64,000 bases of DNA from Desmonostoc muscorum LEGE 12446 (GTDB lineage Bacteria; Cyanobacteriota; Cyanobacteriia; Cyanobacteriales; Nostocaceae), in contig NZ_JADEXS020000002.1 of NCBI RefSeq assembly GCF_015207005.2, positions 434,001-498,000 of the forward strand, written 5' to 3'. Below are positions 15,210 to 45,911 of this stretch, one piece after another. The stretch's first letter is position 1, and each line of letters begins with the position of its first letter. Made by a program: the position numbers and the translations under genes. Under the pieces are notes generated by a model. That model saw only the letters and a program-made list of their open reading frames with translations, was not told where the DNA came from and searched no databases.

Positions 15210-15261
15210 ACCTGCTGGATGCTTGGCTCGTTTATTGCTGTCGGGATCCCTGGCTGTCTAA

Positions 15262-16089: not shown

Positions 16090-17072
16090 TAATTCTGCGT
16101 CTCGTGACAAATAGGGGATGACTGAAAAAGGGGGGTACTATCTAGCTGCTGTTCGGAGCTTGGTTTTTGGGGTCTTTCAGAGTAATCAGGAACTTTTGGC
16201 AGCCCGTCTAAATCTGCCTTTAATTGCTGTCGGAGCTTTGTATCTAATGGCAGCACAGATTCACTCAAATTACTTAGGAAGTGTGCCTGACAACGTTGAT
16301 GTGGTACATCTGTCCAAGTTGAATTTATTGCCGCGATGATTGCTGATTCCCCATCTGATAATGTTGCCAGCACTGTGTACGGCAACTCCTTATATGGTTG
16401 CAGCCACTCAATTAACCGTTGTGCTTGTGCCTGTGGCAATTGAATTGCACTAACTGGTGTGCCACTTAATACCTCGTATAACACATACAACAAAGTCCCA
16501 TGACCCTCTGGCTGTAAGGCATCAATTGCCCAAATCAAACCACCATGTTCAATCGCTGTCGCAGCTAACTTCTCAGCCGTATGTGCAATCGTTCCACCCA
16601 ACAGTGCCAAAAATTGACCGTATAACTTGCCCACATTGCTTTCGTTAATTTCAACACCGCGCTGGTTTAATGAGCGTTGAATTTCTACCAACTGTTGATG
16701 CTCATGTTCATGTTGCCAACCAATAAATGCCAGCACGTCTAGCCCGTAGGTACTGTAAGGCAGACTGTACTTTAGCACCCCAGTAGCGTAGTAATGTTTA
16801 CCAAAATGTGTGCAATTGGGATTGGTACATTCTTTACTTTTACCTGCCACAAACACTGCACCATCCATTGTTTGAATGGTTTTACGCATGTGCCTTGGTC
16901 TACGTAGAACTAACTCTTTACCACAATGCACACATTCGATGAGCGAACATTCTAAAATTATTCGTTTGATGTTACTGAATTTTCGTTCTGGGCGATGGCG
17001 AGGCAACTTTACTATCACTAATTTTTTACTGCTGCTAGGTGCTTTCCTCAGCTTACCTGCTTTGTATACCAA
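16089..17072 (-). CDS. Transposase part A (zinc finger, first two Asp)
   Basis: 327 aa. Cys pairs CVHCGKEL and CTNPNC form an N-terminal zinc-binding domain. Catalytic-core motifs: WAIDALQPEGHG (first Asp) and LSDGESAIIAAI...CQAHFL, the Asp and C-x2-H of MULE-like/ISL3-like DDE transposases. The frame ends QSSPICHETQN just before the third catalytic residue, which lies in part B. The stop overlaps the ATG of part B (TAATG). Upstream of the overlap, a C6T5 run (16135-16125, minus strand) could allow -1 slippage. Confidence 0.85.
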   Translation of the reverse strand: MVYKAGKLRKAPSSSKKLVIVKLPRHRPERKFSNIKRIILECSLIECVHCGKELVLRRPRHMRKTIQTMDGAVFVAGKSKECTNPNCTHFGKHYYATGVLKYSLPYSTYGLDVLAFIGWQHEHEHQQLVEIQRSLNQRGVEINESNVGKLYGQFLALLGGTIAHTAEKLAATAIEHGGLIWAIDALQPEGHGTLLYVLYEVLSGTPVSAIQLPQAQAQRLIEWLQPYKELPYTVLATLSDGESAIIAAINSTWTDVPHQRCQAHFLSNLSESVLPLDTKLRQQLKADLDGLPKVPDYSERPQKPSSEQQLDSTPLFQSSPICHETQN

Positions 17073-17086
17073 CTAGATAGCTAGGG

Positions 17087-29739: not shown

Positions 29740-29862
29740 GTGTCTCTCGAACAAATTAAAGCATTTTATCAACGATTAGCAACTAATGAACTTTTCCGAA
29801 CTCAAATACAAGAAGTGAAAAGCAAAAAAGATGGATCTCCTCCGCCACCTCCTAATTTTTGA
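29740..29862 (+). CDS. Short Nif11-type peptide with proline-rich end, 40 aa
   Basis: GTG start at 29740, with AGGAAG (29728-29733) at a good distance. The peptide reads MSLEQIKAFYQRLATNELFR then TQIQEVKSKKDGSPPPPPNF. The first 25 residues equal helix 1 of the Nif11 leader domain (compare ALEHVKAFYERLAADEAF at 33619); the rest of the leader and the GG site are missing and the peptide jumps to SPPPPPNF. It lies 81 bp before the radical SAM gene. It may be a compact substrate, a decoy or a truncated precursor. Confidence 0.6.
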   Translation: MSLEQIKAFYQRLATNELFRTQIQEVKSKKDGSPPPPPNF

Positions 29863-29943
29863 GTAGTTACTTTTACGCTTAGATGTCAGCTTAATAAAAA
29901 ATAATCTATTCGGGCTTTTCATACAGTAATTAAGGATGATTTA

Positions 29944-31209
29944 ATGAGCGAATATCGCCGCATTAGTTATGCTGTCTGGGAAATTACCCTTAAGTGTAAC
30001 CTCGCCTGTCAGCATTGTGGCTCACGAGCAGGTCACACCCGCGCTAAAGAACTCACCACCTCAGAAGCCTTAAACCTCGTCCAACAGCTCGCAGAAGTTG
30101 GGATCAAAGAAGTCACCCTCATCGGTGGTGAAGCCTTTCTCCGTTCCGACTGGCTAGAGATTGCCCAAGCAATTACTCAAGTGGGGATGATCTGCGGGAT
30201 GACGACTGGGGGCTATGGCATCAATTTAGATACTGCTCGAAAAATGAAAGAAGCTGGGATTAGAGTAGTGTCTGTCTCGGTAGATGGGTTAGAAGAAACA
30301 CACGATCGCTTGCGGGGGAAAAAGGGATCTTGGCAATGGGCATTTAAAACCATGAGCCATCTTAAAGAAGTCGGCATTCCCTTCGGTTGCAATACGCAAA
30401 TCAACCGCCTTTCTGCCCGAGAATTTCCCCAAATCTACGAATACATCCGCGATGCAGGAGTGTTTGCTTGGCAGATTCAGTTAACTGTACCAATGGGGAA
30501 TGCAGCCGACAATAACGAGATCCTAGTGCAACCTTACGAACTGCTAGATATTTATCCGATGATTGCTCGCATTGTCCAACGGGCGAACCAAGAGGGAGTA
30601 AAGGTACAACCAGGAAATAATATCGGGTATTACGGGCCTTATGAAAGGTTCTTGCGTGGCGGGGATGCTTGGTCATTTTGGCAAGGATGCACGGCGGGAC
30701 TAGCGGCGTTAGGAATTGAAGCAGATGGGGCAATTAAGGGGTGTCCATCGTTACCGACTGCTGCTTATACAGGAGGAAATATTCGCGATCGCTCTCTGGG
30801 AACCATCATTGAGGAAACAGAAGAGTTGCGGTTCAATCTGGGGGCAGATACTCCCAAGGGGACGGAGCATTTGTGGGGGTTCTGTAAAACCTGCGAATTT
30901 GCTCAACTCTGTCGCGGGGGCTGTAGTTGGACGGCTCATGTCTTTTTTGACCGCAGAGGAAATAATCCCTACTGTCACCATCGCGCTTTGACTCAGGCAA
31001 AACGGGGCATTCGAGAGCGATTTTATTTGGAGCAACCCGCCGCAGGAGTGCCGTTTGATAATGGGAAGTTTGTTTTAGTTGAAGAAGCTATTGATGCACC
31101 TTTGCCAGAGAATGAGCCACTTCAGTTTTCTGCTTCTCGTATTCAATGGCCGGATAGTTGGCGGGAGGAGACAGAGTTGACCCGATCTTTGGTGGGGATA
31201 AATCATTAA
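29944..31209 (+). CDS. Radical SAM/SPASM peptide maturase
   Basis: 421 aa. The CxxxCxxC motif binding the SAM [4Fe-4S] cluster is Cys18/Cys22/Cys25 (LKCNLACQHC), with GGEA about 58. The C-terminal SPASM domain (about 250-355) has CTAGLAALGIEADGAIKGC, CKTCEFAQLCRGGC and PYCHHR, enough Cys for auxiliary clusters. SPASM enzymes modify ribosomal peptides (thioether, C-C or epimerised bonds). AAGGA precedes the start. The surrounding leader peptides are the plausible substrates. Which bond it makes cannot be told from sequence. Confidence 0.85.
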   Translation: MSEYRRISYAVWEITLKCNLACQHCGSRAGHTRAKELTTSEALNLVQQLAEVGIKEVTLIGGEAFLRSDWLEIAQAITQVGMICGMTTGGYGINLDTARKMKEAGIRVVSVSVDGLEETHDRLRGKKGSWQWAFKTMSHLKEVGIPFGCNTQINRLSAREFPQIYEYIRDAGVFAWQIQLTVPMGNAADNNEILVQPYELLDIYPMIARIVQRANQEGVKVQPGNNIGYYGPYERFLRGGDAWSFWQGCTAGLAALGIEADGAIKGCPSLPTAAYTGGNIRDRSLGTIIEETEELRFNLGADTPKGTEHLWGFCKTCEFAQLCRGGCSWTAHVFFDRRGNNPYCHHRALTQAKRGIRERFYLEQPAAGVPFDNGKFVLVEEAIDAPLPENEPLQFSASRIQWPDSWREETELTRSLVGINH

Positions 31210-31225
31210 AAATCAGGAGTAATTT

Positions 31226-31390
31226 ATGTCTGAAAATTCAGCTATTAATTCTCAAGCTCAAAGCGAGTCTCAAGAGCCTTTATTACCGCGATCAGCTTGG
31301 AATAGTCAATTAGCTTATTTGAGAACCTTATTTAGAGCGAAAAAAGTTTTGGATTTGATTGAACAAGAAGCGGGTGTGGTAAGGAGTTAA
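31226..31390 (+). CDS. Small protein following the radical SAM gene, 54 aa
   Basis: ATG 31226 with AGGAG at 31215-31219 and 16 bp after the maturase stop, so it is translated from the same message. Sequence: a Ser/Gln-rich start, then PLLPRSAWNSQLAYLRTLFR and a helix ending VLDLIEQEAGVVRS. No GG site. It could be an accessory partner of the maturase or an unusual substrate. Too short for many gene finders. Confidence 0.6.
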   Translation: MSENSAINSQAQSESQEPLLPRSAWNSQLAYLRTLFRAKKVLDLIEQEAGVVRS

Positions 31391-31619
31391 TTATTACGAG
31401 GTAGTTTGAGACACAGCTATATTAGTTTCCTTGTGCGGAATAAGTAAGTCGGCGAGAATAAACAGAACACGAGTTACAAAACGTAAATAGGCTTGAAACC
31501 CTTACCAATGAGCAATGACGACCCTAACGAGTTAGTTTTATTTGTGTCGATCTACTTACCTTTTCCTAGAAAAAATAAATAGGAATTTTTAATTTTTTAT
31601 TTTTGGAGGACATTTAGAA
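31391..31619. other. 229-bp gap, promoter region of the precursor genes
   Basis: No gene. AT-rich, ending in GGAGGA (31605-31610) as ribosome-binding site of the first precursor. Confidence 0.4.
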
Positions 31620-31853
31620 ATGGCTAATATCAAAGTTATTGACTTGAATCTCGCAAATCAAGACTTTTCATCAAGTCCCAAAACCTTGTTGCCTAATGAG
31701 ATAGAAAAGGTATTCGGCGGTGAAAGTGAATCTGGTTACTACATCTGGGATGATGGCAGTGCAATATTCTGGGATAACGGCGTTTACGAAGCCTATGATA
31801 CTGAAGGAAATCTCTATAGTATTGTTGCTTTTGGAACTGGTGAACCCAGATGA
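31620..31853 (+). CDS. Double-glycine precursor peptide 1, 77 aa
   Basis: Leader MANIKVIDLNLANQD... ends NEIEKVFGG (residues 29-37), the LxxxEIxxVxGG type of site cut by C39 peptidases. The 40-residue core is aromatic and acidic: GYYIWDDGSAIFWDNGVYEA is its centre, with IWDDG and FWDNG as a near repeat. GGAGGA precedes the ATG. Predicted to be processed and exported by the C39 ABC exporter at 39-45 kb, and possibly modified by the radical SAM enzyme. Confidence 0.75.
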   Translation: MANIKVIDLNLANQDFSSSPKTLLPNEIEKVFGGESESGYYIWDDGSAIFWDNGVYEAYDTEGNLYSIVAFGTGEPR

Positions 31854-31887
31854 AATAGCTTTTAGCAGATAAAGGAGAATAATTTTC

Positions 31888-32100
31888 ATGAATAACGTCA
31901 AAAATCACGAACTTGAGTTATTAAATTTAGATGAGCAATTGCTCGATTTATCTGAAGATGAACAAAAAGCAATAAGAGGTGGGGTAGCTACCTGTGTATA
32001 TCAAGGTCAACCATCTACACAAGGCGCTACAGTTACACAAGCAGATGGTGTTTACAAATGTCAAGAAGATGGTAGTTGGCAAAAAGTTTCAAGTAAATAG
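31888..32100 (+). CDS. Double-glycine precursor peptide 2, 70 aa
   Basis: Leader MNNVKNHELELLNLDEQLLD with LSEDEQKAIRGG (about 21-32) as cleavage site. The core (about 38 aa) has two Cys (ATCVYQGQ and YKCQEDGSWQ) 20 residues apart that could form a disulfide. AAAGGAG is well placed. The core is hydrophilic, unlike peptides 1 and 3. Confidence 0.75.
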   Translation: MNNVKNHELELLNLDEQLLDLSEDEQKAIRGGVATCVYQGQPSTQGATVTQADGVYKCQEDGSWQKVSSK

Positions 32101-32211
32101 ATTGTTTGTTGTGAATTAAATCAAGCAAATTCTGGCGATCGCCCAATTTAAAACTCATTGATTCAGCGATCGCTAAATCAACACAACCTTTAAAAAAGGA
32201 GAGTAATTCCA

Positions 32212-32445
32212 ATGGCTAACATTTCAATTACCAATCTAAATATCGATAATTTTGAATCTTTACCTATTCAAAAACTATCAGAGGAGAAAATGCAAAATAT
32301 TCGAGGTGGAGCATTAATATCAGAGAATGATGCTGATATTATTATCGATGCTGACGGTAATCGAGTGCTAACTAATGTAATTTACTCAGGTGAGGGATTA
32401 CCTTGGGGTACAGGCGGCTCTGATTCTGATTATACTGGGGCGTGA
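32212..32445 (+). CDS. Double-glycine precursor peptide 3, 77 aa
   Basis: MANISITNLNIDNFESLPIQ opens the leader and LSEEKMQNIRGG ends it (about 22-33). The core contains DADIIIDADGNRVLTNVIYS and ends LPWGTGGSDSDYTGA. AAAAAAGGAGAG gives a strong ribosome-binding site. It shares the MANIxIxxLN start with peptides 1 and 6. Confidence 0.75.
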   Translation: MANISITNLNIDNFESLPIQKLSEEKMQNIRGGALISENDADIIIDADGNRVLTNVIYSGEGLPWGTGGSDSDYTGA

Positions 32446-32612
32446 CGCACTCAAGCCAAGATTGCATTTAATAATAGACTTCTTCAATTTTCAATCTACA
32501 GTCTTACGAGCTTATTACCCCTAAAACAGCCGCTAAGCATCGCTTGTTCTAGTCAAAATGATGGCTCTACTTCTGAGTACATCTTTCCAATAAAATTTTG
32601 AGGAAATAGCAA

Positions 32613-32810
32613 ATGTCTAACATTTATATATCTGATTTATATCCTACAAATCAATCGATGTTACCACATCATAGACAATCACTGAATTTGGAAGAAATAA
32701 ATTTGATTAAGTCTGCAACTTCACGAGCGATCGATACTCGCAAAATATTAGGTGGATCGTTAAATAATTTTGAGCTTGAAACAAGAGGTGGAAAGAGATT
32801 TGAATCCTAA
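32613..32810 (+). CDS. Double-glycine precursor peptide 4, 65 aa
   Basis: MSNIYISDLYPTNQSMLPHH start, then LNLEEINLIKSATSRAIDTR-KILGG (about 25-49). The core after GG is only about 16 residues: SLNNFELETRGGKRFES, with a second RGG. The SRAIDTRK(I/V)(L/V)GG block is shared with peptide 5. GAGGAAA lies before the ATG. Confidence 0.7.
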   Translation: MSNIYISDLYPTNQSMLPHHRQSLNLEEINLIKSATSRAIDTRKILGGSLNNFELETRGGKRFES

Positions 32811-32886
32811 GGAGATTAATCATTTCATTCCTATGTGTTGACTTGTCAATCATTTCTTTTTTTAGTCGTCAAATTTTGGAGCTTCC

Positions 32887-33081
32887 ATGCCAATTATTCA
32901 AGTTTCTGATTTGAACTCTGAAAATGATAACGATTCCCTGAAGTTGCTCAATCCTCAAGAACATGATTTGGTTAAGGCTGCCGTTACGAGAGCGATTGAT
33001 ACCCGCAAAGTAGTAGGAGGTGGCTCCGCTGTGACATTAATCTTTGCAACAGATGGTAGGCGTCCTACTCTAGATATCTAG
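32887..33081 (+). CDS. Double-glycine precursor peptide 5, 64 aa
   Basis: MPIIQVSDLNSENDNDSLKL start, LNPQEHDLVKAAVTRAIDTR and KVVGG as leader end. The core is about 17 residues (GSAVTLIFATDGRRPTLDI). Paralogue of peptide 4 in the block before the cleavage site. GGAG (32879-32882) precedes the ATG. Confidence 0.7.
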   Translation: MPIIQVSDLNSENDNDSLKLLNPQEHDLVKAAVTRAIDTRKVVGGGSAVTLIFATDGRRPTLDI

Positions 33082-33119
33082 ATATAGCGCAGTAGTATTT
33101 AGATTTAGAATACGCAAAC

Positions 33120-33524
33120 ATGAACAATCCTCTACCATTATGTCCCAGTGCCCAGCCTGATATGCCAAACAGCATAGCCTTGGGTGTTATGGTTGGCACT
33201 GTTGATGAACCTCACTTTGTCCATTTTCAAAAGCCTAAGCAAGTCACAGAAGAGCTTCTAGCTTTGGCTGAACCTGTAAAGCCTACAGAAGTTTTCCGAT
33301 TTGCAGCAACCTGTATGGGTAGTGGTTGTATACATTTCGATGGTGCTAACTGTCGCCTGGTTCAACGAGTCGTGGAAACCTTGCCAACAGTTGCAGAAAC
33401 GCTTCCTCCTTGCCATATACGCTCTAGTTGCCGTTGGTATCAGCAAGAAGGCAAAGCCGCCTGTGTGCGCTGTCCTCAAGTCGTCACAGATCGACCGATT
33501 ACTTCTGTCGATACTACTAAATAA
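33120..33524 (+). CDS. Cys-rich protein of the leader-peptide locus, 134 aa
   Basis: Eight Cys; seven lie in the C-terminal half: TCMGSGCIHFDGANC, PPCHIRSSCRWYQQEGKAAC and RCPQ. The spacing C-x4-C-x7-C ... C-x5-C-x10-C-x2-C suggests an iron-sulfur or zinc site or disulfides. No signal peptide. Similar Cys-rich proteins accompany Nif11-type genes in cyanobacteria as far as I recall; function unknown. Candidate electron donor or binding partner for the radical SAM system, by position only. Confidence 0.6.
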   Translation: MNNPLPLCPSAQPDMPNSIALGVMVGTVDEPHFVHFQKPKQVTEELLALAEPVKPTEVFRFAATCMGSGCIHFDGANCRLVQRVVETLPTVAETLPPCHIRSSCRWYQQEGKAACVRCPQVVTDRPITSVDTTK

Positions 33525-33618
33525 AGATTTTCTTTGTATCTTGCCAGTTGCACACATCAAAGCTCCGATAACAATTAGTTAAAAGCCTCACAGCCTTGAA
33601 AAGATCGAGGAGATGATT

Positions 33619-33939
33619 ATGGCTCTTGAACATGTCAAAGCGTTTTACGAAAGACTGGCTGCTGACGAAGCTTTTTATAAGCAACTTCAAGGCACTAAAA
33701 GTAAAGTTGAATGCAGTCAAGTTGTTAAAGATGCTGGTTATGATTTTACCGAGCAAGAATTTGAAAAGTATACGTCCCAGTTGTTACGATTAAATACTTC
33801 AGACGAGCTTCGGGAAATGAATGAGAAAGAACTTAAAGCAGTTTTTGGTGGTGCATACTTATTCACTACAGGAGCAGAACCATTGCCACCATACGGTCAT
33901 TCACCCCTTGAGTGGATTGGAAATATCCAAGCTTTTTAA
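33619..33939 (+). CDS. Nif11-type leader peptide precursor, 106 aa
   Basis: ATG 33619 is preferred over 33613 because GGAG (33609-33612) is then correctly spaced. MALEHVKAFYERLAADEAFY, then QVVKDAGYDFTEQEFEKYTS and ELREMNEKELKAVFGG: a complete Nif11 leader ending in GG. The core is about 28 residues, AYLFTTGAEPLPPYGHSPLE then WIGNIQAF, rich in Pro and aromatics, no Cys, so not a lanthipeptide. Likely a proteusin/spliceotide-like or unmodified precursor. Confidence 0.8.
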   Translation: MALEHVKAFYERLAADEAFYKQLQGTKSKVECSQVVKDAGYDFTEQEFEKYTSQLLRLNTSDELREMNEKELKAVFGGAYLFTTGAEPLPPYGHSPLEWIGNIQAF

Positions 33940-33966
33940 TTATTTCTTCCTATAAAGGAGAAAATA

Positions 33967-34263
33967 ATGTCTGCTGAAAATATTAAAAATTTTTGCAAAC
34001 ACTTGGCTAATAATTACGAATTTCGCTGCCAACTAAACACTGCTAAAAATCAAAATGAATGGCTTAGTATTGTGTCAAATTTCGGCTTTGTTTTTACTAA
34101 GCAATAGGTGGAATATGAAATAGCTAAATTGTTGGAACTAAGGGATGATTCAAATGAGTTAAGAGAGTTAGATAGTCTTGAATTAGCAGGAGTTTTTGGA
34201 GGATGTATTCAACCTATATATGGCACTCCTGTTCCTGAGCCTTCTGAGCCAATGACAGCCTGA
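33967..34263 (+). pseudogene. Nif11-type precursor with an amber codon
   Basis: AAAGGAG precedes ATG 33967. MSAENIKNFCKHLANNYEFR is Nif11 helix 1. Codon 47 is TAG (34105-34107) after FVFTKQ, where homologues have Gln or Glu. The same frame then continues through ELRELDSLELAGVFGG to a 19-residue core CIQPIYGTPVPEPSEPMTA and TGA. One C-to-T change from CAG would explain it. Everything after the stop remains open and conserved, so the change is recent, or the codon is read through. Confidence 0.7.
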
Positions 34264-34817
34264 GTTAATATAGCGATTTGCAAGTCTGTGAAGTATAGAG
34301 TCGCCAAGATTATTAAGACATATATAGAGTTCTAAAAGGATGGACAATGTTCATCCTTTTTTTAGTAATTGTCTCTATAGTTAATATTTATTTTTGGTTA
34401 TTGTAAAAATAATAATCTGTTTATAATTGGGATCTCCAGTATGGTATTAAAAGTATTTTAAGAAATTAATATTTTAATTTTTTCTTGTGCTTCTACTTAG
34501 AATTATAGCAAAGTGCTGAGTGCTGAGTATAAACCTGCTTGTTTCAAAGCTTTGAGGAATCAACACTTGTCCTAACCTATGTGACTACGGCTATATCTAT
34601 TTTAATTATTCTTGAAATCCAATTTCTGTTATTAAAATAAATTGGACAGCTTGGAGAACTTATATTAGAGAAATAATAATTACTTTTATAACCAATGTAT
34701 ATGCTCAAAAATATTGTTTTTTATATAGTAATCAGAAAAAATAGAACCAAGAAACTAAATATTTAGCAATTTTAGTTTCTCGAATCAATAACTATTTTAT
34801 TCAGGAGAAAATTCCAA
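34264..34817. other. 554-bp AT-rich gap
   Basis: No gene. GTGCTGAGTGCTGAGT (34513-34528) is a short heptamer-type repeat. The stretch before 34818 is the probable promoter region for precursor 6. Confidence 0.4.
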
Positions 34818-35006
34818 ATGGCTAACATCAAAATTAGTGAACTAAATCCTGCAAAATCAGCAGAAATACTCAATCTAAAAGATGAGTCTGAAAAAGGCAA
34901 TTCAGAAGGAATTATTGCTTTCAAAACTTTGCGTGGAGGACGAACAATTACTCCTGAATGGTCACCATGTCAGCCGCCTCCGGGAGACCTTTATGGTGGA
35001 GCTTAA
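34818..35006 (+). CDS. Double-glycine precursor peptide 6, 62 aa
   Basis: MANIKISELNPAKSAEILNL start; GIIAFKTLRGG (about 30-41) ends the leader. The core is 21 residues: RTITPEWSPCQPPPGDLYGG then A, with one Cys and five Pro. CAGGAG lies nine bases before the ATG. Clean example of the MANIxIxxLNP leader class. Confidence 0.75.
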   Translation: MANIKISELNPAKSAEILNLKDESEKGNSEGIIAFKTLRGGRTITPEWSPCQPPPGDLYGGA

Positions 35007-35186
35007 TGCTCAAGTAGCATAAAATTAAGCACTTGTTTTTAACAAATTACTTAGCGTCTCTACAGTAGCACTGTTAAATCAATTGACAATTGCTACTGTA
35101 GAACTCCTAAGCAAAGAATATTATTGAACTATCTTCTTTGAATTCCTGAACGCTACTGTAACAATTTTATATTAGGAAGAAAATTT

Positions 35187-36542
35187 ATGACTTTACTAGA
35201 CAATTTATTGACTACTTGGATTAATCGTCCTTATCTCGATCTAAGTCCTTGCAGTCATAGTTCTTGGCACGTTTATGGAATAGATTACAGTTATCGTAAC
35301 CTTGTTAAAGATATCTCAATTACTCATCGTTCAATTACTAACCCTGTTACTCTTATCCACCCTATTTCATTTCGACAGTCATTAATCCGTGAATTTGGCT
35401 TATTTCAGTATCAAGTTAGTAACCCACTCCAACTTCCAGATGAATTGAGAACTGAGCGATGGAACGTGCTGTGCGATTACTTAACTCATTATCAAGAACT
35501 TTTACCCATTACTCAGCTTCGAGTTATAGCTCTTCTATCTGGTTTGTGTCTTCATGAAGCTGTTCTAGAATATATACCCAAAATGTCTAATGCACAGATT
35601 TCTGACAGCACAATGCAAGCACACCTTGCTTATAATCGTGCAATGTCAAATTTAATGTTACAGCCTGATGCTGGTACTCTAGACAATCTGCAAGAATTAG
35701 AAACAATTGCCAATTATGCTCCTTTAGGTAGTAGCACTCGGTTTGGTGCTTCTCTTCAGCTAGTAGCGTTGTTTGGCAAGAGATTTGGAAATTTAAATGC
35801 TACCAATTATTGGGGAATTACAGCCGCTCAAGCACTAGAGAATCTACAACCTTCACTAGATGATTTTAACTACAAACGTTTGAGAAGCGTTTACCATCGT
35901 GCAGTTGTTTTTGTTCCTCTCTTGCAGAAAGATAAAGAAGCAGTCGTTCGAGAAATGAATCTATGTCAATCTCTTGCAGAAGAGTTAACCCATGAATCTA
36001 GGAATGAGATAGAAAACATTGCTGCCCGTGAAAATTTGACAACTGTCTTTGAGAGTCGCACTAAAGAAGCATTATGGTTAGGCGATATTGATCTAGCAGA
36101 AGAAAGAGCAAGACAAATGGTAGAAATGGAGCCTTTATATTCTCGTTATCGCCTTCAACTAGGGGAAATTTTAATCAAGCAAAGTAAATTTGAAGAAGCT
36201 GCCAAAATGTATCGTTCAGCTACCAGACTAGGGCCACCTGGAACGGCGATCGCTTGGTTTATGGCTGGTCAGTGCCATGAGAAAATGGGTGATATAGATA
36301 TTGCTTGTGATTGCTATCTAGCTTCAGTGCAAATGGATGAACTTGCTATTTCAGCCGTAGATAAATTGAACAATTTAGCTCCTCGTTTAGGTAACTTAGC
36401 ACTTGTGAATTGGAGCGATATGCGTTTGCTCCAATTACAAGAACAGCAAAAAAACATTGCCAATCAATCCAGAACCTCTTACATCTCTGAAGCATCTTCC
36501 GAACTAAAAATAGCAGGAGAAAAAGCATTGGCTCAAATATAA
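35187..36542 (+). CDS. TPR-containing protein, 451 aa
   Basis: Starts MTLLDNLLTTWINRPYLDLS. The middle and C-terminal parts are helical; residues about 290-380 form at least two tetratricopeptide repeats (EALWLGDIDLAEERARQMVE, KQSKFEEAAKMYRSATRLGP, KMGDIDIACDCYLASVQMDE). No signal peptide, so it acts in the cytoplasm. It follows precursor 6 on the same strand and precedes, convergently, the export operon. A scaffold that hands precursors to the maturase or exporter is an inference; the N-terminal half is not recognised. Confidence 0.6.
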   Translation: MTLLDNLLTTWINRPYLDLSPCSHSSWHVYGIDYSYRNLVKDISITHRSITNPVTLIHPISFRQSLIREFGLFQYQVSNPLQLPDELRTERWNVLCDYLTHYQELLPITQLRVIALLSGLCLHEAVLEYIPKMSNAQISDSTMQAHLAYNRAMSNLMLQPDAGTLDNLQELETIANYAPLGSSTRFGASLQLVALFGKRFGNLNATNYWGITAAQALENLQPSLDDFNYKRLRSVYHRAVVFVPLLQKDKEAVVREMNLCQSLAEELTHESRNEIENIAARENLTTVFESRTKEALWLGDIDLAEERARQMVEMEPLYSRYRLQLGEILIKQSKFEEAAKMYRSATRLGPPGTAIAWFMAGQCHEKMGDIDIACDCYLASVQMDELAISAVDKLNNLAPRLGNLALVNWSDMRLLQLQEQQKNIANQSRTSYISEASSELKIAGEKALAQI

Positions 36543-36743: not shown

Positions 36744-37487
36744 TTATCCTTGAGGGGAATTAAAGAGTTGTGTTGTGTTAGGTATAGTTGACTCCTTTTG
36801 TTGTTTTAGCCATTCATTAAATAAATTACCACCAATTTGATTGGCTAACTTAGAGTCTAAGCTAGGTTGAATAATCTCTTCTACCCAAATCAAATGAAAT
36901 CCCCTAGCAGTTTCAATCGGAGTTAAAACTTGTGGTGGAGTTGCAGCAAAAACCGCCGCCGAAATTTCTGGTTTTAAATCCTGGCGATACAAGACTCCTT
37001 GATATCCTAACTTTTGTCTTAAATCCGTATCTTGAATGTATTGATGTGCTACTTCATAAAAACTTATTTCTCTTTCTTTAATTGCATAAAATAGTTCCAT
37101 TGCTAAATCTTCATCATCCAAGATAACCTCATACATTACGACAGCCATATAATCTAACTGATGCTCATAAAAATATGGCTCAACTTTATCGGCAAACAGA
37201 TGAGAGGTTAACTTGCTAGAGACAATCCCATAGTGAAGCATTTCTTCAAATTCATCGATTGATAACTGATGCTTTTCTAACCATTGATAAGTCTCATTGG
37301 CATTTTCCAGTTTGTTTGCTAAGCGAAAGCTATCTGCTGCTTTCTGGAGTTCTTCAATCTCAACTTGAATTCCTAATTCTTCAGCAGTGTCTAAAACTAT
37401 TTTGCGAGTGATAATTCCTGTGAGTATTTCAGGAAACTTACTCGAAAATTTTACTTGCTTGAGAATATCTTCAGATGTGATTTTCAT
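36744..37487 (-). CDS. PpiC-type (parvulin) peptidyl-prolyl isomerase
   Basis: 247 aa. Helical N-terminal SurA/PrsA-like part (1-110) and a parvulin-like domain (about 120-215): FYEVAHQYIQDTDLRQKLGY, LKPEISAAVFAATPPQVLTP and ETARGFHLIWVEEI. No signal peptide is seen, as usual for the isomerases beside cyanobacterial HlyD/C39 exporters, where they may help the peptide at the exporter. Last gene of the export operon, 33 bp after hlyD. Confidence 0.8.
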   Translation of the reverse strand: MKITSEDILKQVKFSSKFPEILTGIITRKIVLDTAEELGIQVEIEELQKAADSFRLANKLENANETYQWLEKHQLSIDEFEEMLHYGIVSSKLTSHLFADKVEPYFYEHQLDYMAVVMYEVILDDEDLAMELFYAIKEREISFYEVAHQYIQDTDLRQKLGYQGVLYRQDLKPEISAAVFAATPPQVLTPIETARGFHLIWVEEIIQPSLDSKLANQIGGNLFNEWLKQQKESTIPNTTQLFNSPQG

Positions 37488-37520: not shown

Positions 37521-39011
37521 CTACAATCTAAACCCTTCTTTTTCTAACTTCTTAAACGGGTCTAAAACAAAATCAATTAGCCGACGCTGGCGCACAATAA
37601 CTTCTGCGGTGGCTGTCTCACCAGGGCGCAGGTTAATACAATCTTTTTGTGTTTGAATACAAGTACGATTTAGCTCAATATCTAAGTCATAAACTAACGT
37701 TTTACCCCCAGCTACTTCCATTTCATAAGTCGTTGGTGAAATCTTGATTAAACGCCCTTCAACGATGCCATATTCTTGAAAGGGATAAGCGTCAAATTTA
37801 ATTTTGACGGACATTCCTTTCTGTAAAGAACCACTCTCTCCACTTTCAATTTTTGCTCTGAGGATTAAAGCTGTTCCTTTGGGAGCGATTTCTGCGATCG
37901 CGTTTCCTGGTTGGACAACTGCACCAGGACGATTAATAGAGAGTTGAAAAATTTTACCTTCTATGTTCGCTTTGACAATTCGTTGATTCAACTGAAACTC
38001 TAGAGACTTAATCAGATTTTGACTCTGAGCAATTTCAGCTTTTAATGTTGTCATTTCTGTCTCTAAGTTTTTAAATTGTTCTTGAATTTTTAGTTTTGCT
38101 AATTTACCAGAACGAAGCAAACTTTGATAGCTATTTTCTTGTTCTTTTAATTGCAACTGAGCTTGTTGAATATCCGAGTTAGCTTGTTTAAGAGTGCGAG
38201 CATAACTACTTTTTTGCTCCCCTAGACGCAACTTTGCTTGTTCTAAATCTGACTTAGTTTGCTCTAGTATCCTGATTCTCTCTTGAACGAAATCTTCTCT
38301 TTCAACTAATTGAATTTCTGAGACAATTTCTTCTTTAAGAGCATTTTGATAGCGATTTAACTCTTTTTGAGCAGTTCCTAAACGAATTTGGTCTAAATTG
38401 GCTGTAGTTTGACTGTGTTCAAGAGTTTTTTTAGCTTGATTAACTTGGGCTATTTTTTCCTCTTTTTGTAAGTTATAAGCACTATTTAATGAATCTAATT
38501 TCTGTTTAATTTGCTTAACTTGTGCTTGCTTCTCCAATGCTTGAGATTGATTTTGTTGCTGTTGAATTTCGAGAGCAAACTGTAGTTGATTCAAAAGTAA
38601 ACTTAGTTGATGTAAGCGATTTTGTTGTCCTTCTAGTTTATTTTTCTGCTGTTTAAGTTCTGCACCAACTAACTCAGAGTCTAATTCCAGTAAAGTTTGT
38701 CCTGCTTTAACAAAATCTCCTTCTTTGACCTGAATTTTTGTCACTGTTCCCGATACGGGAGCATCCAGTCTTACAGTTTTTCCTTGGGGTTCTATTCTTC
38801 CTCTTGCCGTTCCAGTTTCATCAACTTTGGATAACATTGCCCAAGGTAAAACAATGCTCACAAAGATAACTAAAAAGTAGAGCAATCCTCTCGTCCAAAC
38901 ACGGGGTAAACTGTCTAAAAGCTCTTGAGTTATATTAGACCAATCATCTCGTTGCTTAGAGATATAATTCTCTTGAGTTTGAGTTTTTTTTTCGTTCAAA
39001 GTATTAGTCAT
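37521..39011 (-). CDS. HlyD-family membrane fusion protein
   Basis: 496 aa. One transmembrane helix (about 40-62, LLYFLVIFVSIVLPWAML), a lipoyl/barrel start IEPQGKTVRLDAPVSGTVTK and IQVKEGDFVKAGQTLLELDS, a long coiled-coil hairpin (about 115-345) and a second barrel half GAVVQPGNAIAEIAPKGTAL. This adaptor joins an inner-membrane C39 ABC exporter to the envelope. It comes after the exporter gene (now 3.5 kb more distant because of the IS), so its transcription may depend on promoters within the IS. Confidence 0.9.
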   Translation of the reverse strand: MTNTLNEKKTQTQENYISKQRDDWSNITQELLDSLPRVWTRGLLYFLVIFVSIVLPWAMLSKVDETGTARGRIEPQGKTVRLDAPVSGTVTKIQVKEGDFVKAGQTLLELDSELVGAELKQQKNKLEGQQNRLHQLSLLLNQLQFALEIQQQQNQSQALEKQAQVKQIKQKLDSLNSAYNLQKEEKIAQVNQAKKTLEHSQTTANLDQIRLGTAQKELNRYQNALKEEIVSEIQLVEREDFVQERIRILEQTKSDLEQAKLRLGEQKSSYARTLKQANSDIQQAQLQLKEQENSYQSLLRSGKLAKLKIQEQFKNLETEMTTLKAEIAQSQNLIKSLEFQLNQRIVKANIEGKIFQLSINRPGAVVQPGNAIAEIAPKGTALILRAKIESGESGSLQKGMSVKIKFDAYPFQEYGIVEGRLIKISPTTYEMEVAGGKTLVYDLDIELNRTCIQTQKDCINLRPGETATAEVIVRQRRLIDFVLDPFKKLEKEGFRL

Positions 39012-39057: not shown

Positions 39058-39593
39058 TCAAGCAGCTATATCTAATTGTTGTTGATTGAGGTAGAAGTAA
39101 TGCCCTCGTTTTGACATTAGTTGTTTGTGAGTGCCACTTTCGACTAACACACCTTTATCAAGAACTAAAATCAGATCGGCTTTACGAATTGTTGAGAGAC
39201 GATGAGCGATAACTAAAGTCGTTCTATTTCTGAGAATAGTATTGAGATTAGTCTGAATAATCCGCTCCGATTCAGTATCTAAATGGGAGGTTGCTTCATC
39301 TAAAATTAATAGGCGAGGATTTCCTAATAAAGCACGGGCGATCGCGATTCTTTGCCTTTGTCCGCCCGATAATAGTCCTCCTCCTTCCCCGATTTGGGTT
39401 TCATACCCCATTGGTAAGCGATCAATAAATTCGTGCGCTCCCGCTAATTTCGCTGCTTCAATTACCTCATCAAGATTCGCAGAAGGATTTCCTAAACTGA
39501 TATTTTCTCTGATAGTTGCTCCAAACAAAAAAGTATCTTGATCTACGACTCCAATTTGCTGTCTGAATGAACTTAGAGAAAGACTGGTAATAT
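39058..39593 (-). pseudogene. C39 ABC exporter, 3' fragment
   Basis: Continuation of the gene at 43050-45237. From the IS end it reads DITSLSLSSFRQQIGVVDQD and FLFGATIRENISLG (Q loop), then GGGLLSGGQRQRIAIARALL (signature), LLILDEATSHLD (Walker B) and VIAHRLST (H loop). It has signature and Walker B but no Walker A, which lies across the insertion. Alone, from ATG 39528, it would be a 156-aa half nucleotide-binding domain without function. Confidence 0.85.
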
Positions 39594-39677: not shown

Positions 39678-40558
39678 CTAAGCAGATTCTGGATGCTTTT
39701 TGCGAGGCTTAGTTGTAGTTTTTTTGACTATCGGATAGCGAATTCTACGTTGTCGTGGTTTTCCTGGTTTCCAGCCTGGAGACTTTCCGCGAGGTTTAGG
39801 CGAACGGGCAGGAGTACCAATCACCGCAAAAATACTCCCCATCGCTTGAGCAACTCTCCCAGGAGTCAAATTGTCTAATGATTTTTGCCAAGGTAAAGGG
39901 TTATCAGCAACGATATCACGAGCCAACCACAATTCCCAAGTCATCAGAGGCATGAGGTCACTCCAATGCTCAGATTGCTTGGGACTACTCAACTTAGGCA
40001 ATGTCCAGTGCAAGCGTTGCTTCAAAAAACGATACCAGTGGTCAACAGTAAAACGTCGGAGGTAGAGTTGCCAAACTTGAGATAGTGGAAGCATTTCCTC
40101 TCCTACCCAAGCCAACCACAAAGGTTTTGATATACGTAGGTTGCCTTCTGCATCTAGACGCTCAACTCGAATCAGCGACATTGGGCGTGTCGCCGTTTGA
40201 CGAAAGTGTAAATTTTTCCACAAGCTCACCTTCACCCGTCCCAGTTTAGGATGGTTGACTTCTATACTCTCATTGGCTTCACTCCATGTAGAAGGATCAT
40301 TGAGTTTAAATTTATCACCATGTTTCCTGGGTCGCCCTTTACCAGAATATGGTGGTGGTGCGCCCCATAAACAAAGATTTGAACGCAAACGTACCAGAAT
40401 GTCCGCTTTGATATTAGTCGTCTTCAACACAAAAGGGGCGCAGCCATACTCACTATCCCAAACTGTAATTGGTCTAGTTGGTAAATGTTCACACACTTGC
40501 TGTAATTGCCACGTTGCCTTTTGTATCGGATTTTCCCAACTGGTAATTCGCTCATGCC
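39678..40558 (-). pseudogene. Outer IS transposase, C-terminal part
   Basis: From the inner-IS junction the frame reads RITSWENPIQKATWQLQQV then CEHLPTRPITVWDSEYG (catalytic Asp), and later RRFTVDHWYRFLKQRLHWTL, an IS4-superfamily-like Glu/Trp block. The C-terminus is very basic (RQRRIRYPIVKKTTTKPRKK). It joins the part at 42398-42832 after removal of the inner IS. The family is a cyanobacterial IS4-superfamily group I cannot name with certainty. Confidence 0.8.
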
Positions 40559-40572
40559 CCCTGGCTGTCTAA

Positions 40573-41400
40573 TTAGTATTTAAGAGCTTGAAACTCAAGC
40601 ACAGTGAGAAGTCCCTGATGTTGATTGACCAAAGATTGTATTGTGCTAACTGGATTACGATGAAGGCGACGTTTTTGTTGGCGAGGAGCTTGTGCGATCG
40701 CTAATCTACGACGTTGAGTTTTATACTCAGCTATAGGTACTTCCCGAATTTGTTGAAGTAACTGTTTTTCGTTTTGAGCTACAAATAGAACTTGATATTG
40801 GCCCAAATCACGTAATTCAACAGTTGATTTGCGTCCACTAATACGTCGCTGATGGCGACGCAAATGACTAAATAAAGACTCGATTTTCAGGTTATCTGGT
40901 GGCAAACCAGGGATATCATAGCAGTGTAATAAGTCAGTACTGTATTTATCCCATAAACGTTGTAACTTTTTTTTGAGAGCAAACTGTGCCGGATTTTGTT
41001 GATGGTCAGGTTGAAACATCTGTAATAACTCTTCCATCTCACGCCGAACTTGAAAGCTTGTTAAAGGGATTTGGGCAGTCTCTGTAATATCGATTACATC
41101 ATCTGAGGTACGGTCAGAATTATTAGGATAGCGCAAACAATTAGCAATTCGTCGCAACCATTGGTGCGCCTCTGACAAGTCAGACGCGACTGAACGATTA
41201 TTACTTAAGGCAAGGTCCACCCATACTGATAACAGAGATAAATAATCTGTATCAATTTCCCGGTATGGTAAACTACGTAGTACTTCTCCAATAGCTAATA
41301 GTTGCTGGTAGCCCATTAAACCACCCCAACTAAACGGTTTGCGACTTGTGCGATTGACACAATCCCGAATCGCCGCACGAATTTGAGCTTCCACTGCCAT
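40573..41400 (-). CDS. Transposase part B, copy 2
   Basis: Identical to the product of 15262-16089, with the Glu-containing block LKIESLFSHLRRHQRR. Start ATG 41400 (TTG 41421 in the extended frame). See copy 1 for the discussion of frameshift or re-initiation. Confidence 0.8.
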   Translation of the reverse strand: MAVEAQIRAAIRDCVNRTSRKPFSWGGLMGYQQLLAIGEVLRSLPYREIDTDYLSLLSVWVDLALSNNRSVASDLSEAHQWLRRIANCLRYPNNSDRTSDDVIDITETAQIPLTSFQVRREMEELLQMFQPDHQQNPAQFALKKKLQRLWDKYSTDLLHCYDIPGLPPDNLKIESLFSHLRRHQRRISGRKSTVELRDLGQYQVLFVAQNEKQLLQQIREVPIAEYKTQRRRLAIAQAPRQQKRRLHRNPVSTIQSLVNQHQGLLTVLEFQALKY

Positions 41401-42383
41401 TAATTCTGCGTCTCGTGACAAATAGGGGATGACTGAAAAAGGGGGGTACTATCTAGCTGCTGTTCGGAGCTTGGTTTTTGGGGTCTTTCAGAGTAATCAG
41501 GAACTTTTGGCAGCCCGTCTAAATCTGCCTTTAATTGCTGTCGGAGCTTTGTATCTAATGGCAGCACAGATTCACTCAAATTACTTAGGAAGTGTGCCTG
41601 ACAACGTTGATGTGGTACATCTGTCCAAGTTGAATTTATTGCCGCGATGATTGCTGATTCCCCATCTGATAATGTTGCCAGCACTGTGTACGGCAACTCC
41701 TTATATGGTTGCAGCCACTCAATTAACCGTTGTGCTTGTGCCTGTGGCAATTGAATTGCACTAACTGGTGTGCCACTTAATACCTCGTATAACACATACA
41801 ACAAAGTCCCATGACCCTCTGGCTGTAAGGCATCAATTGCCCAAATCAAACCACCATGTTCAATCGCTGTCGCAGCTAACTTCTCAGCCGTATGTGCAAT
41901 CGTTCCACCCAACAGTGCCAAAAATTGACCGTATAACTTGCCCACATTGCTTTCGTTAATTTCAACACCGCGCTGGTTTAATGAGCGTTGAATTTCTACC
42001 AACTGTTGATGCTCATGTTCATGTTGCCAACCAATAAATGCCAGCACGTCTAGCCCGTAGGTACTGTAAGGCAGACTGTACTTTAGCACCCCAGTAGCGT
42101 AGTAATGTTTACCAAAATGTGTGCAATTGGGATTGGTACATTCTTTACTTTTACCTGCCACAAACACTGCACCATCCATTGTTTGAATGGTTTTACGCAT
42201 GTGCCTTGGTCTACGTAGAACTAACTCTTTACCACAATGCACACATTCGATGAGCGAACATTCTAAAATTATTCGTTTGATGTTACTGAATTTTCGTTCT
42301 GGGCGATGGCGAGGCAACTTTACTATCACTAATTTTTTACTGCTGCTAGGTGCTTTCCTCAGCTTACCTGCTTTGTATACCAA
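41400..42383 (-). CDS. Transposase part A, copy 2
   Basis: Identical in sequence to the product of 16089-17072 (327 aa): Cys-pair zinc domain, first Asp in WAIDALQPEGHG, second Asp in LSDGESAIIAAI. Stop overlaps the ATG of part B by one base. Identity with copy 1 argues for very recent movement. Confidence 0.85.
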   Translation of the reverse strand: MVYKAGKLRKAPSSSKKLVIVKLPRHRPERKFSNIKRIILECSLIECVHCGKELVLRRPRHMRKTIQTMDGAVFVAGKSKECTNPNCTHFGKHYYATGVLKYSLPYSTYGLDVLAFIGWQHEHEHQQLVEIQRSLNQRGVEINESNVGKLYGQFLALLGGTIAHTAEKLAATAIEHGGLIWAIDALQPEGHGTLLYVLYEVLSGTPVSAIQLPQAQAQRLIEWLQPYKELPYTVLATLSDGESAIIAAINSTWTDVPHQRCQAHFLSNLSESVLPLDTKLRQQLKADLDGLPKVPDYSERPQKPSSEQQLDSTPLFQSSPICHETQN

Positions 42384-42397
42384 CTAGATAGCTAGGG

Positions 42398-42832
42398 CTC
42401 ATGCCTCAACGGTAACGCCCAACTGCCAGAATCCTCTGGTATCCAAGCAATGGTACTATATCCCTGACCAACGGTAATTGGTTTGTTTCCGGTTATGGTA
42501 ACACTGGTGTGTTCAATTGTCCTCTCAATAAGAGTTACCGCATCCGGGCGCGACCAGGCAGTGTGGTCGCCTGCCAACAACGGACGACCCTGTTGTGGCA
42601 TCTGTTTGATGTATAACTGCATCAATTTTTGTCGCTGTGGTCTGCTATCTTGTAACGCTTCATAAATACTTGGCCACTTTCTTCTAAATACTGGCGATAG
42701 CGATAAATCTGCCAAACTGTAGGCATTCCGCGTCAGTAATATTGCATCCATCAGTTCAAAAGTTGCATCATGCGCTCTACCTAAATAGCTGTACGCTGCT
42801 TGACGAAATTCTTTTAGTAAGGCACTTTTCAT
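42398..42832 (-). pseudogene. Outer IS transposase, N-terminal part
   Basis: Starts MKSALLKEFRQAAYSYLGRA and runs GRPLLAGDHTAWSRPDAVTL (first Asp region), ending at the junction ...SGSWALPLRHE. Joined to 40558-39678 it gives a full-length protein of about 440 aa in one frame, so the outer IS was intact until the inner IS arrived. Confidence 0.85.
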
Positions 42833-42909: not shown

Positions 42910-43049
42910 CAAAATTTTATACCAACAACACATCTTTTATCGAGTTAACGATCGCTCTTCTTGATAGTCTCAACTCCAGAAGTTAAAATGTATACCAAAA
43001 AAACACGCACACTTTTTTAGCGATCGCCTGCTTTTAGTCTAAACTCCAG

Positions 43050-45237
43050 TAATATCCTTCCCATCAATTAACACTTTTCCAATCGTAGGGGGATATAAGC
43101 CTAAAATCAGCTTAGAAATAGTTGTTTTTCCCGAACCACTGCGTCCAACTAAAGCAACCATTTGACCAGGTTCGATCTCAAAACTGAGATTTTCTAGAAT
43201 ATTACTATCGGTCTCTGCGTGATAGCGAAAGGTAACATTTTCAAAGCGAATGCGGCCTTTGAGGGACGGTAAAAATTGGCGAACTTCTTGCTGTAAATCT
43301 TCTTCTGGTTGGTAGTCGAGAACATCGTTTAAACGTTCGATCGCAATAATGATCTCCTGCAACTGTTCCCAAAGAAGTGCCATTCTCTGAAAAGGTCGAA
43401 TGACATTACCAAGCAGCATATTAAAAGCCACTAACTGCCCAATAGTTAACTGATTTTGAATGACTAAATATGCCCCAAAACATAACAACCCAGCCGTAGC
43501 TAAAGTTTCAATAGTATTGCTAAAAATTTGCAGACGATTTTGGATAAGTTGTCCAGAAAAGTGAGTTTTGATTTCTTTTCCTAACAATCCTTCCCAATGC
43601 CAGCGAACTGACTGTTCGACGGCTGTAGATTTAACCGTGCGAATCCCTGTCAGCGCTTCAATGAGATAGCTTTGTTCCTTGACGATTTCGTTAAATATTT
43701 CTCTCGAAATTCTTTTGAGAAAGGGAGTGGCAATTAAGGCCAGAAGAAAAAATGGAGGTACGATCGCTAATACTAATAGTGCCATCTTCCAGGAGTACCA
43801 AAACATCAAGCTAACATAAACAAACACCATCAGTAAATCGAGTAAAATCGCTAAAGCTTCTCCGGTTAAAAATCTTTGGATTTTGCGATTTTCCTGTACT
43901 CTTGAGATGATATCTCCCACATAGCGAGACTCAAAAAAACTTAAAGGCAAGCGCAAAGTATGGCGGATAAATCCAACGATTAAAGCCAGATCAATTTTAT
44001 TAGCCGTGTGATCGAGTAAATATTGCCGCAACCCGATAATTGCTACCCGAAACAGACCAAAAATAATTAATCCTAACCCAACTGCTATCAAGGTTAGTTC
44101 CGATCTCTGCACCACCACTCGATCTAAGAGAAGTTGAGTAAAAATCGGTGTAATCAGTCCAAAAATTTGCACGAATAAAGAAGCGATAAATATCTCAAAA
44201 ATGACTAATCCATGTGGCTTAAGTAATTCAAAAAATTGCCAAAAAGGAGTCTTATGTTCTTTGGCTTCTTTGAATGAGACAGTAGGTTGCAACAACAAAG
44301 TGTATCCCGTCCAACCTGCTTGAAATTCCCTATGACTGAGAGTTTTTTGTCCGAGCGCAGGATCGGCAATAACAACCGTTTTGGGGGTAATCTCATAAAC
44401 GACAATGTAGTGCTTTCCTTCCCAGTGAACGATCGCGGGAAGTTGTTGTTTGGCTAATTGCGCTAACTCAGCTTTCACAGGACGAGTGGCAAAGCCGATA
44501 CTTTCTGCTGCCGCACACAGTCCTGCCAAAGATGCGCCGTTGCGATCGACGTTGGCTATATCTCGAATGCGATTGACACTCAACTGTTTCCCCCAAAACA
44601 GAGCGATCATGACTAGACAAGCCGCCCCACAATCAGAAGCACTCAGTTGAGGATAAAAGGGATAGCGGCGGACAATTCGTTGCCATAGATGACTGACTCG
44701 TTGAAGGGGTTGAGGAAAGTAAGCTTGGTTAATTTTTTTGTGAGCCTTGGAGGCTTTTGGGGTAATTAAAATGGGAGTGATTTCTTTTTTATCAGGCGTT
44801 GAGTCAATTGATGAAGGATTAAAAAGCGAGTTCAAACTTTGAGCTTGAGCCAAAAAATGTTCTCGAATTTGAGGATATTTTGTGAGTAAGGGAAAGATTA
44901 ATTGAGGAGAAAGATAAGCGAGTTTCGCATTGAGCGAAGTCCTAGCTGAATAAGGCAAAAAATTCTCTTCTGGGAAAAAGGTACACTCACCAAAAGATTC
45001 TCCCGATTTAAGAGTGGCAATTAATTCTTTAGCAGAATTGGTGAGTCGAATTTTACCACCAATAATGAGATAAATTCCAGCTTTTGCATCGGTCGTTTGC
45101 CAAAATTTACCGACTTTGGGTTCGATGAATTGAATTTGTGGAAGACAGTTGAAAAATTCTTCTTTGCCAAGAGAGTACCCAAGAATCTTGGCAAGTTGTT
45201 GAGGAGAAATTGAAGCCGTAGATATTTGTTTTTCCAT
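43050..45237 (-). pseudogene. Peptidase-containing ABC exporter, 5' part (cNMP-C39-TM-Walker A)
   Basis: From ATG 45237 (MEKQISTASISPQQL): a cyclic-nucleotide-binding-like domain (about 20-145), a C39 peptidase with the catalytic Cys in PQLSASDCGAACLVM (about 202), His in PAIVHWEGKHYIVV and Asp in VIADPALGQ, five to six membrane helices (about 345-640), and Walker A LVGRSGSGKTT near 705. It then runs into the outer IS (LIDGKDITGV, stop). HetC/SunT-type exporters cut double-glycine leaders and pump out the core. The break between Walker A and the signature must abolish activity unless the IS leaves precisely. Confidence 0.9.
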
Positions 45238-45242
45238 ATTTA

Positions 45243-45911
45243 TCAATCAAGTTTGAAGCAAGCGATTTGCCACAATTCATCAGCATTAAGCACGGCGTTC
45301 GATGGCAAATTTTCAATGATAATTCTTCTAGTTTCTGGTTCTGAATCGCTAGATGCATCGATTTTGGACGGTTTTGGTTTAGTAGATAATCCCATCTCTT
45401 TGAGTAGGTGGTTAATATAGCGATCGCTCACTTTTATGCGAAACTCTTTTTCTAAATGTTTGCTCAACCAGTCTCCCGTCCAGCGATGAAATGGATAGCC
45501 CAAATCGCGGGGAGTCTGACTAACTAATTCTTTGAGCCGTTCTAAATAGCAATCGTTAATGGTCTGCGGACGACCGATAGCGCGTTTTTTCCATTGATGC
45601 GCCATCCCGCTTTCAGCCACTAAAATCCAATGTCTGGCGGTAGCGGAAGAACACCCCACCTGCTGACAAATTTCTGCTTGCGATTTTCCTTCATCCGCTA
45701 ACAACATAATGCAAATGCGTTGGCGGTGCAGTTTAGATAAGTTCTCATCTTCAAGACTTTTTTGTAGTTGCTTGCGCTGAAATTCAGTTAAGCAGCCAGA
45801 GGTTTTAGCCAAGTCATGAAACATATAGCGTTCAACAATTGTGATTGTTATTTCCCGATTGAGCTTGCATAAAGTTGCAAATGTAAGCTCAATCGGTTTA
45901 ATGTCCTTCAT
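45243..45911 (-). CDS. HTH protein related to IS630 DNA-binding domains
   Basis: 222 aa. HTH from about 68 (RICIMLLADEGKSQAEICQQ VGCSSATARHWI, two helices), a winged-helix part (RDLGYPFHRWTGDWLSKHLE, SDRYINHLLKEMGL), then a Lys/Pro/Ser tail. This is the N-terminal half of an IS630-type transposase without the DDE catalytic domain. It is the first gene of the export operon; its stop lies six bases before the exporter ATG. A domesticated regulator is likely. The tail (PSNAVLNADELWQIACFKLD) is not transposase-like. Confidence 0.7.
   Translation of the reverse strand: MKDIKPIELTFATLCKLNREITITIVERYMFHDLAKTSGCLTEFQRKQLQKSLEDENLSKLHRQRICIMLLADEGKSQAEICQQVGCSSATARHWILVAESGMAHQWKKRAIGRPQTINDCYLERLKELVSQTPRDLGYPFHRWTGDWLSKHLEKEFRIKVSDRYINHLLKEMGLSTKPKPSKIDASSDSEPETRRIIIENLPSNAVLNADELWQIACFKLD

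Follow-up and report, generated by a model that had tools for sequence, protein, structure and literature searches.

A worn copy of a putative peptide-splicing system and probable further peptide modules near a split exporter cassette in Desmonostoc muscorum LEGE 12446

The 64,000-nucleotide stretch of Desmonostoc muscorum LEGE 12446 DNA considered here (the window; bases 434001-498000 of contig C2 in a 9.6-Mb genome) carries, within positions 29740-36542 of its plus strand, a crowded set of genes of the type associated with ribosomally synthesized and post-translationally modified peptides (RiPPs). We are fairly confident that this interval comprises parts of at least two distinct peptide modules, and probably of three, next to a single exporter cassette: a decaying spliceotide unit, a tetratricopeptide repeat (TPR) protein with its precursor GG6, and a Cys-rich protein with the precursors GG4 and GG5 (GG denoting the double glycine at the leader end). 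The original prediction had let one radical SAM/SPASM enzyme and one exporter serve several unrelated cores. Its inventory of the enzyme gene (29944-31209), the Cys-rich protein (33120-33524) and the TPR protein (35187-36542) is borne out by family profile searches and open reading frames (ORFs); it had passed over a PlpY-like ORF of 54 amino acids (31226-31390) and an exporter on the opposite strand with its ABC gene in two pieces. An actin-like protein (PF17989), together with ORFs whose translations read as ParA/ParB-like, suggests that this region of contig C2 is part of a large plasmid.

The PlpXY splicease of Pleurocapsa sp. PCC 7319 and its spliceotides are reportedly the subject of work by Morinaka and co-workers in 2018. 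The protein encoded at 29944-31209, in a frame open throughout, belongs by profile search to the TIGR04103 equivalog (822.9 bits against a cut-off of 725). A search for the plp locus, with matches in eight of 27 genomes, found locus L188 of genome G074, from the family that holds Hyella; its enzyme reaches 824.4 bits against the same model and is 76% identical to the window enzyme over 407 residues. C18, C22 and C25, together with C249, C267, C314, C317, C323, C327 and C344, are invariant in six aligned sequences, and we take these positions to follow the layout of the radical SAM and SPASM cysteine motifs. Directly upstream of the L188 enzyme are two precursors with Nif11 leaders, whose cores start AVAAMYGVVFP and finish FPIRPLYGLPI. 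PlpXY splice tags include GGPIRPLYGLPI and GAVAAGYGVVFPG, and an M5G mutant of PlpA3 and a minimal PlpA2 core into which GYG was engineered are mentioned in the same source (PMC10533398); from the likeness of its precursor cores to these tags, L188 would be the plp locus itself or something very close to it. PlpXY excises a tyramine equivalent (C8H9NO, ~135 Da) at X-Tyr-Gly (PMC10533398); PlpX corresponds to IPR026482 and PlpY to a truncated RiPP recognition element, with leaders of the Nif11 or nitrile hydratase type (PMC11002830), and a second review agrees on the PlpX/PlpY pair (PMC10373908). By family the window enzyme is thus a PlpX-type splicease; judged by this homologue, Nif11 precursors would be expected to shift by about -135 Da for an excision at X-Tyr-Gly (PMC10533398), in place of the loss of 2 Da previously put forward. 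In a tree of the enzymes the window copy falls into one clade (7 rows, support 100/99; bootstrap not fully settled) with those of Microseira wollei and Hydrococcus and four from Microcystis, and the other Nostoc copies lie outside; this clustering away from them suggests that the splicease may have been acquired horizontally. Locus L065 of Microseira wollei, whose enzyme is the closest to that of the window (88%), has a second PlpY-like stretch ~6.5 kb off and MAN-type GG peptides. At L040, in genome G025 of the window's own genus, the enzyme DNA does not differ from that at L070 of Nostoc mirabile.

The neighborhood of the enzyme was counted at the splicease loci of relatives (105 loci with duplicates included, 93 with distinct enzyme DNA, one of which, L064, carries an enzyme fragment only; named loci such as L070 are the top 80 of 363), with two-base shuffles as a simple null and with genomes that are not independent of one another. 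This check, proposed in the original prediction, ties the enzyme to Nif11 precursors and to the PlpY-like ORF, but not to the TPR gene, which is found at one of the 93 distinct loci outside the window, nor to GG1-GG5, for which there is no match at the 105 loci (GG1 at E 1e-3). Relatives of the PlpY-like ORF are present at all 93, lying 1.15-1.8 kb past the enzyme start at 92, and a Nif11 precursor lies on the same strand within 3.7 kb upstream at 86. The next ORF after the L188 enzyme encodes 56 amino acids and, because of its position, would be PlpY itself; the window ORF at 31226-31390 is the likely PlpY-like partner of the splicease. X-Tyr-Gly is present in 131 of 134 distinct linked Nif11 cores with a recognized GG, where shuffling each core gives 25.8 on average (some scripted cores include part of the leader, and three linked precursors with no recognized GG, two showing X-Tyr-Gly and one a fragment, are dropped from the count). 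Leu takes the X place in 106 of 218 such motifs and Met in 59, and Val comes next in 141.

In the window itself the spliceotide unit is decaying. At 29740-29862, before the enzyme, where relatives have their splicease precursor, the Nif11 gene stops after matching positions 1-31 of PF07862, with neither GG nor X-Tyr-Gly; the gene at 33967-34263 is broken by an in-frame TAG (34105-34107), beyond which lie its GG and IYG; the gene at 33613-33939 (PF07862, 4.5e-14) is whole, with leader, GG and a core holding PYG. What had been listed as three Nif11 leader peptides thus comes down to one intact precursor, one cut short and one interrupted. The leader is that of the Nif11-related precursor family (PF07862/TIGR03798; Haft et al. 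2010, PMC2887384), from whose description the window set differs in having one whole copy among three.

The exporter cassette, on the minus strand, is also broken. It consists of a PpiC/SurA-type rotamase (36744-37487, PF00639), an HlyD-type subunit (37521-39011, PF13437, 2.8e-20) and a C39 ABC gene (PF03412 and PF00664) in two pieces: a C-terminal one at 39058-39528, an ORF whose close relatives adjoin HlyD genes elsewhere, and an N-terminal one at 43039-45246, which encodes the C39 peptidase, the membrane domain and the start of the ATPase before it terminates in a stop. Transposase genes on the same strand (39678-42832; DDE_5 in the two outer pieces) separate them, and the inner element, the 1,839 bases at 40559-42397, has an identical copy at 15248-17086, a hint that this insertion sequence moved recently. 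A match to PF00027 (cyclic-nucleotide-binding) in the N-terminal piece (E 2.5e-5, 24.6 bits) falls below the cut-off of 27.5. The transposase-like helix-turn-helix protein adjoining the C39 ABC gene (45243-45911) has relatives in seven of ten TPR loci, as if it were a domesticated regulator. The mixture of precursors, earlier offered as an undescribed combination, was already in print in 2011 at one exporter cluster: group II clusters hold NHLP, Nif11, HetP and other precursors together, with a mean of 3.78 per cluster (Wang et al. 2011, PMC3140520). The exporter cassette (C39 ABC, HlyD, SurA-type rotamase) and the precursor mixture of the window fit groups I/II of that study, in which transposase-linked truncations and insertions are likewise recorded, and the splicease family is itself already known; unlike the present case, the accessible text of that paper contains none of the words 'radical SAM', 'TPR' or 'tetratricopeptide' (PMC3140520).

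That one enzyme should serve many cores fails for the GG peptides as a class, in which X-Tyr-Gly is rarer than in shuffled cores. Six GG-type ORFs lie in the interval, all on the plus strand, and five have the common leader start that the original prediction had noticed; the 64-kb window has five such ORFs, where 40 two-base shuffles of it give 0.075 on average and never more than 1. GG1 (31620-31853, with an acidic-aromatic core) and GG3 (32212-32445) are MANIxIxDL-type peptides; GG2 (31888-32100) has another leader and ends in LSEDEQKAIRGG, like relatives' precursors of the family we call NI (EINDLIDDAVxNAxARR ... GG ... PPIxIGLI), whose model it matches at 21.6 bits. The joint recurrence of Nif11 and MANIxIxDL-type leaders stands: at least one MANIxIxDL-type GG ORF is present at 57 of the 105 splicease loci, duplicates included, against 2 of 105 shuffled. 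At these loci, X-Tyr-Gly occurs in three of 92 MANIxIxDL-type cores, against 9.7 in shuffled ones, and in none of 35 NI cores, against 1.4 (one of 36 NI peptides has no recognized core); it is absent from the cores of GG1-GG5. The neighboring GG peptides are, as a class, devoid of a splicease site, with GG6 and its LYG as the single exception. The splicease could act on GG6, since LYG in the window copy is matched by MYG in the GG6 core of genome G265; the chance of finding X-Tyr-Gly in the window GG6 core is 0.14.

GG6 (34818-35006), whose core also contains Trp, precedes the second module's other component, the TPR protein (35187-36542), an all-helical solenoid according to Pfam TPR models, a structure model (pLDDT 89.8) and fold matches. 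A GG6-type ORF stands before the TPR gene at ten of ten loci (L234, which coincides with L093, is not counted), accompanied by HlyD at nine and by rotamase and C39 ABC genes at eight each; all ten GG6 cores contain Trp and often several Cys. The TPR family is found in nine of 386 genomes (four candidates per genome scored) and GG6 in ten (at most 17 candidates per genome scored), and the two co-occur in nine (Fisher p 2e-17, with no correction for kinship). The splicease is absent from four of the nine other TPR genomes (E 1e-30). The inclusion of the TPR protein in one combined system, as originally proposed, did point to something apparently undescribed, but the protein is not linked to the maturase. 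A search of the literature for the GG6-TPR pair found nothing, which is a weak negative, and the peptide-TPR-exporter module appears not to have been described before, which makes it a candidate novelty. Our proposal, held tentatively and at somewhat less than even confidence, is that a cyanobacterial peptide system new to the literature is made up of GG6 and the TPR protein. The latter would be dedicated to the peptide, whether as its chaperone, as an intracellular receptor or as an immunity partner, and the C39 ABC, HlyD and rotamase proteins would export the peptide, independently of the splicease, which, in genomes that have both, may nevertheless modify those cores that end in X-Tyr-Gly (in the window and in G265).

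The probable third module is centered on the Cys-rich gene (33120-33524), whose family turns up repeatedly in the vicinity of RiPP-type genes and has relatives at 47 of the 93 distinct splicease loci, often adjoining NI precursors. It is preceded by GG4 (32613-32810, with a MANI-type start) and, immediately upstream, GG5 (32887-33081), both with the leader end RAIDTRK..GG. Outside the window two relatives of GG4/GG5 are found, one of them P0244; P0244 and a close relative of the Cys-rich protein, P0122, are both on 1,708-base contigs, perhaps the same one. The Cys-rich protein and NI peptides occur together, with no maturase nearby, at L177, L178, L179, L180, L182 and L183; at L179, in a genome with no splicease match, four tandem NI-type precursors stand before one Cys-rich gene. 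C65, C70, H72, C78, C98, C104, C115 and C118 are invariant among 60 Cys-rich sequences, and these eight Cys/His positions suggest that the protein may bind a metal or an Fe-S cluster. Taken together with GG4/GG5-type peptides, it would constitute a unit of its own. Longer Cys-rich relatives occur at L176 and L181, where neighboring ORFs presumably encode peptides with nitrile-hydratase-type leaders and where, at L181, we take a large protein to be the product of a thiazole/oxazole-type maturation gene. Genes for an APH-type kinase and a HopA1-like protein (at 9860-12227 in L177, for example) are present at 26 of the 93 splicease loci, at five of eight Cys-rich loci that lack a maturase, and at five of the six Cys-rich/NI loci named above; the window has no match to either. 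Class V lanthipeptide enzymes consist of a phosphotransferase and a HopA1-like lyase, a pair tied to dehydration (PMC9486802); the likeness is confined to some relatives' loci and does not extend to the window.

The modular reading can be weighed against its competitors. In this reading the window splicease set is a peptide-splicing system of a known kind in a worn state, with its precursors mostly damaged; the TPR solenoid would most likely bind its own precursor, GG6, as chaperone, export adaptor or receptor; the Cys-rich protein would work with GG4/GG5-type peptides; and the C39 ABC/HlyD/rotamase cassette, its ABC gene now split by insertion sequences, would cut GG leaders and export the peptides. 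The resemblance to PlpXY (PMC11002830, PMC10373908, PMC10533398) lies in the equivalog common to the window and L188 enzymes, the adjoining small ORF, the Nif11 leaders and the X-Tyr-Gly cores of relatives; no epimerase gene is recognized in the ORF lists, in which no family search for one was made. Several observations weigh against the modular reading. The window and L188 enzymes lie in different main halves of the tree. The window's precursors are worn, and X is Pro in the single whole one, a residue rare at this position (4 of 218 motifs). The PlpY-like ORF, although in the same position as the L188 ORF, is weakly similar to it (28% over 43 amino acids), and at seven of the 93 loci the 3.7 kb before the enzyme shows no Nif11 gene (three of these have <1.2 kb of upstream DNA). 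The control for the Nif11 cores, taken from Nif11 proteins encoded apart from the maturase, is a weak one; the GG6 model was drawn largely from genomes that it then matched; GG6 ends in LYG, and its G265 counterpart holds MYG. For the window, the case for module 3 depends on gene position and a few relatives.

The notion of one mixed-leader RiPP system, in which Nif11 and short-GG precursors would share a single SPASM enzyme and all leave through one exporter, draws on the 57 loci with MANI-type ORFs, on the LYG and MYG of the two GG6 cores, and on the ability of PlpXY to splice a 10-amino-acid tag in a foreign protein (although just two of the tested FtsZ insertions were spliced; PMC10533398), which means that the Nif11 leader is not strictly needed; set against these, the scarcity of X-Tyr-Gly in MANI-type and NI cores, its absence from GG1-GG5 and the lack of any match to these five at other loci make this notion very improbable. 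That the interval is instead a graveyard, in which a splicease locus gained by horizontal transfer has lost its function and the leftover peptides are of no current use, is less far-fetched, if still unlikely: the truncated first Nif11 gene, the TAG in the third, the nested insertion sequences that divide the ABC gene and the clustering of the enzyme apart from other Nostoc copies all speak for it, as does a second splicease on contig C1 (8.9 Mb), with a precursor core ...VALYGIFPAPYDTI that holds X-Tyr-Gly. Yet the genes for the enzyme, the PlpY-like, Cys-rich and TPR proteins, GG1-GG6 and one Nif11 precursor are all open, a purine-rich stretch is clear upstream of the start of every one except the Cys-rich gene (13 genes inspected), and these peptides might leave through exporters encoded at other sites of the genome. 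For the TPR protein and GG6 in particular, a predicted solenoid with a small peptide gene alongside is the layout of RRNPP/Rap-type receptors; that the two are a peptide-signalling pair, the exported core being sensed by the solenoid in the manner of Rap/NprR-type TPR proteins, strikes us as a rather doubtful proposition, though not as weak a one as the mixed-leader system.

The modular reading replaces an open-ended 'unknown SPASM enzyme' with a sharp prediction, that ~135 Da would be lost at the X-Tyr-Gly of Nif11 precursors, and it sets the peptide-TPR-exporter module apart as a separately testable unit. For the family at large, the 131 linked Nif11 cores that contain X-Tyr-Gly constitute a large set of candidate natural cyanobacterial spliceotides.

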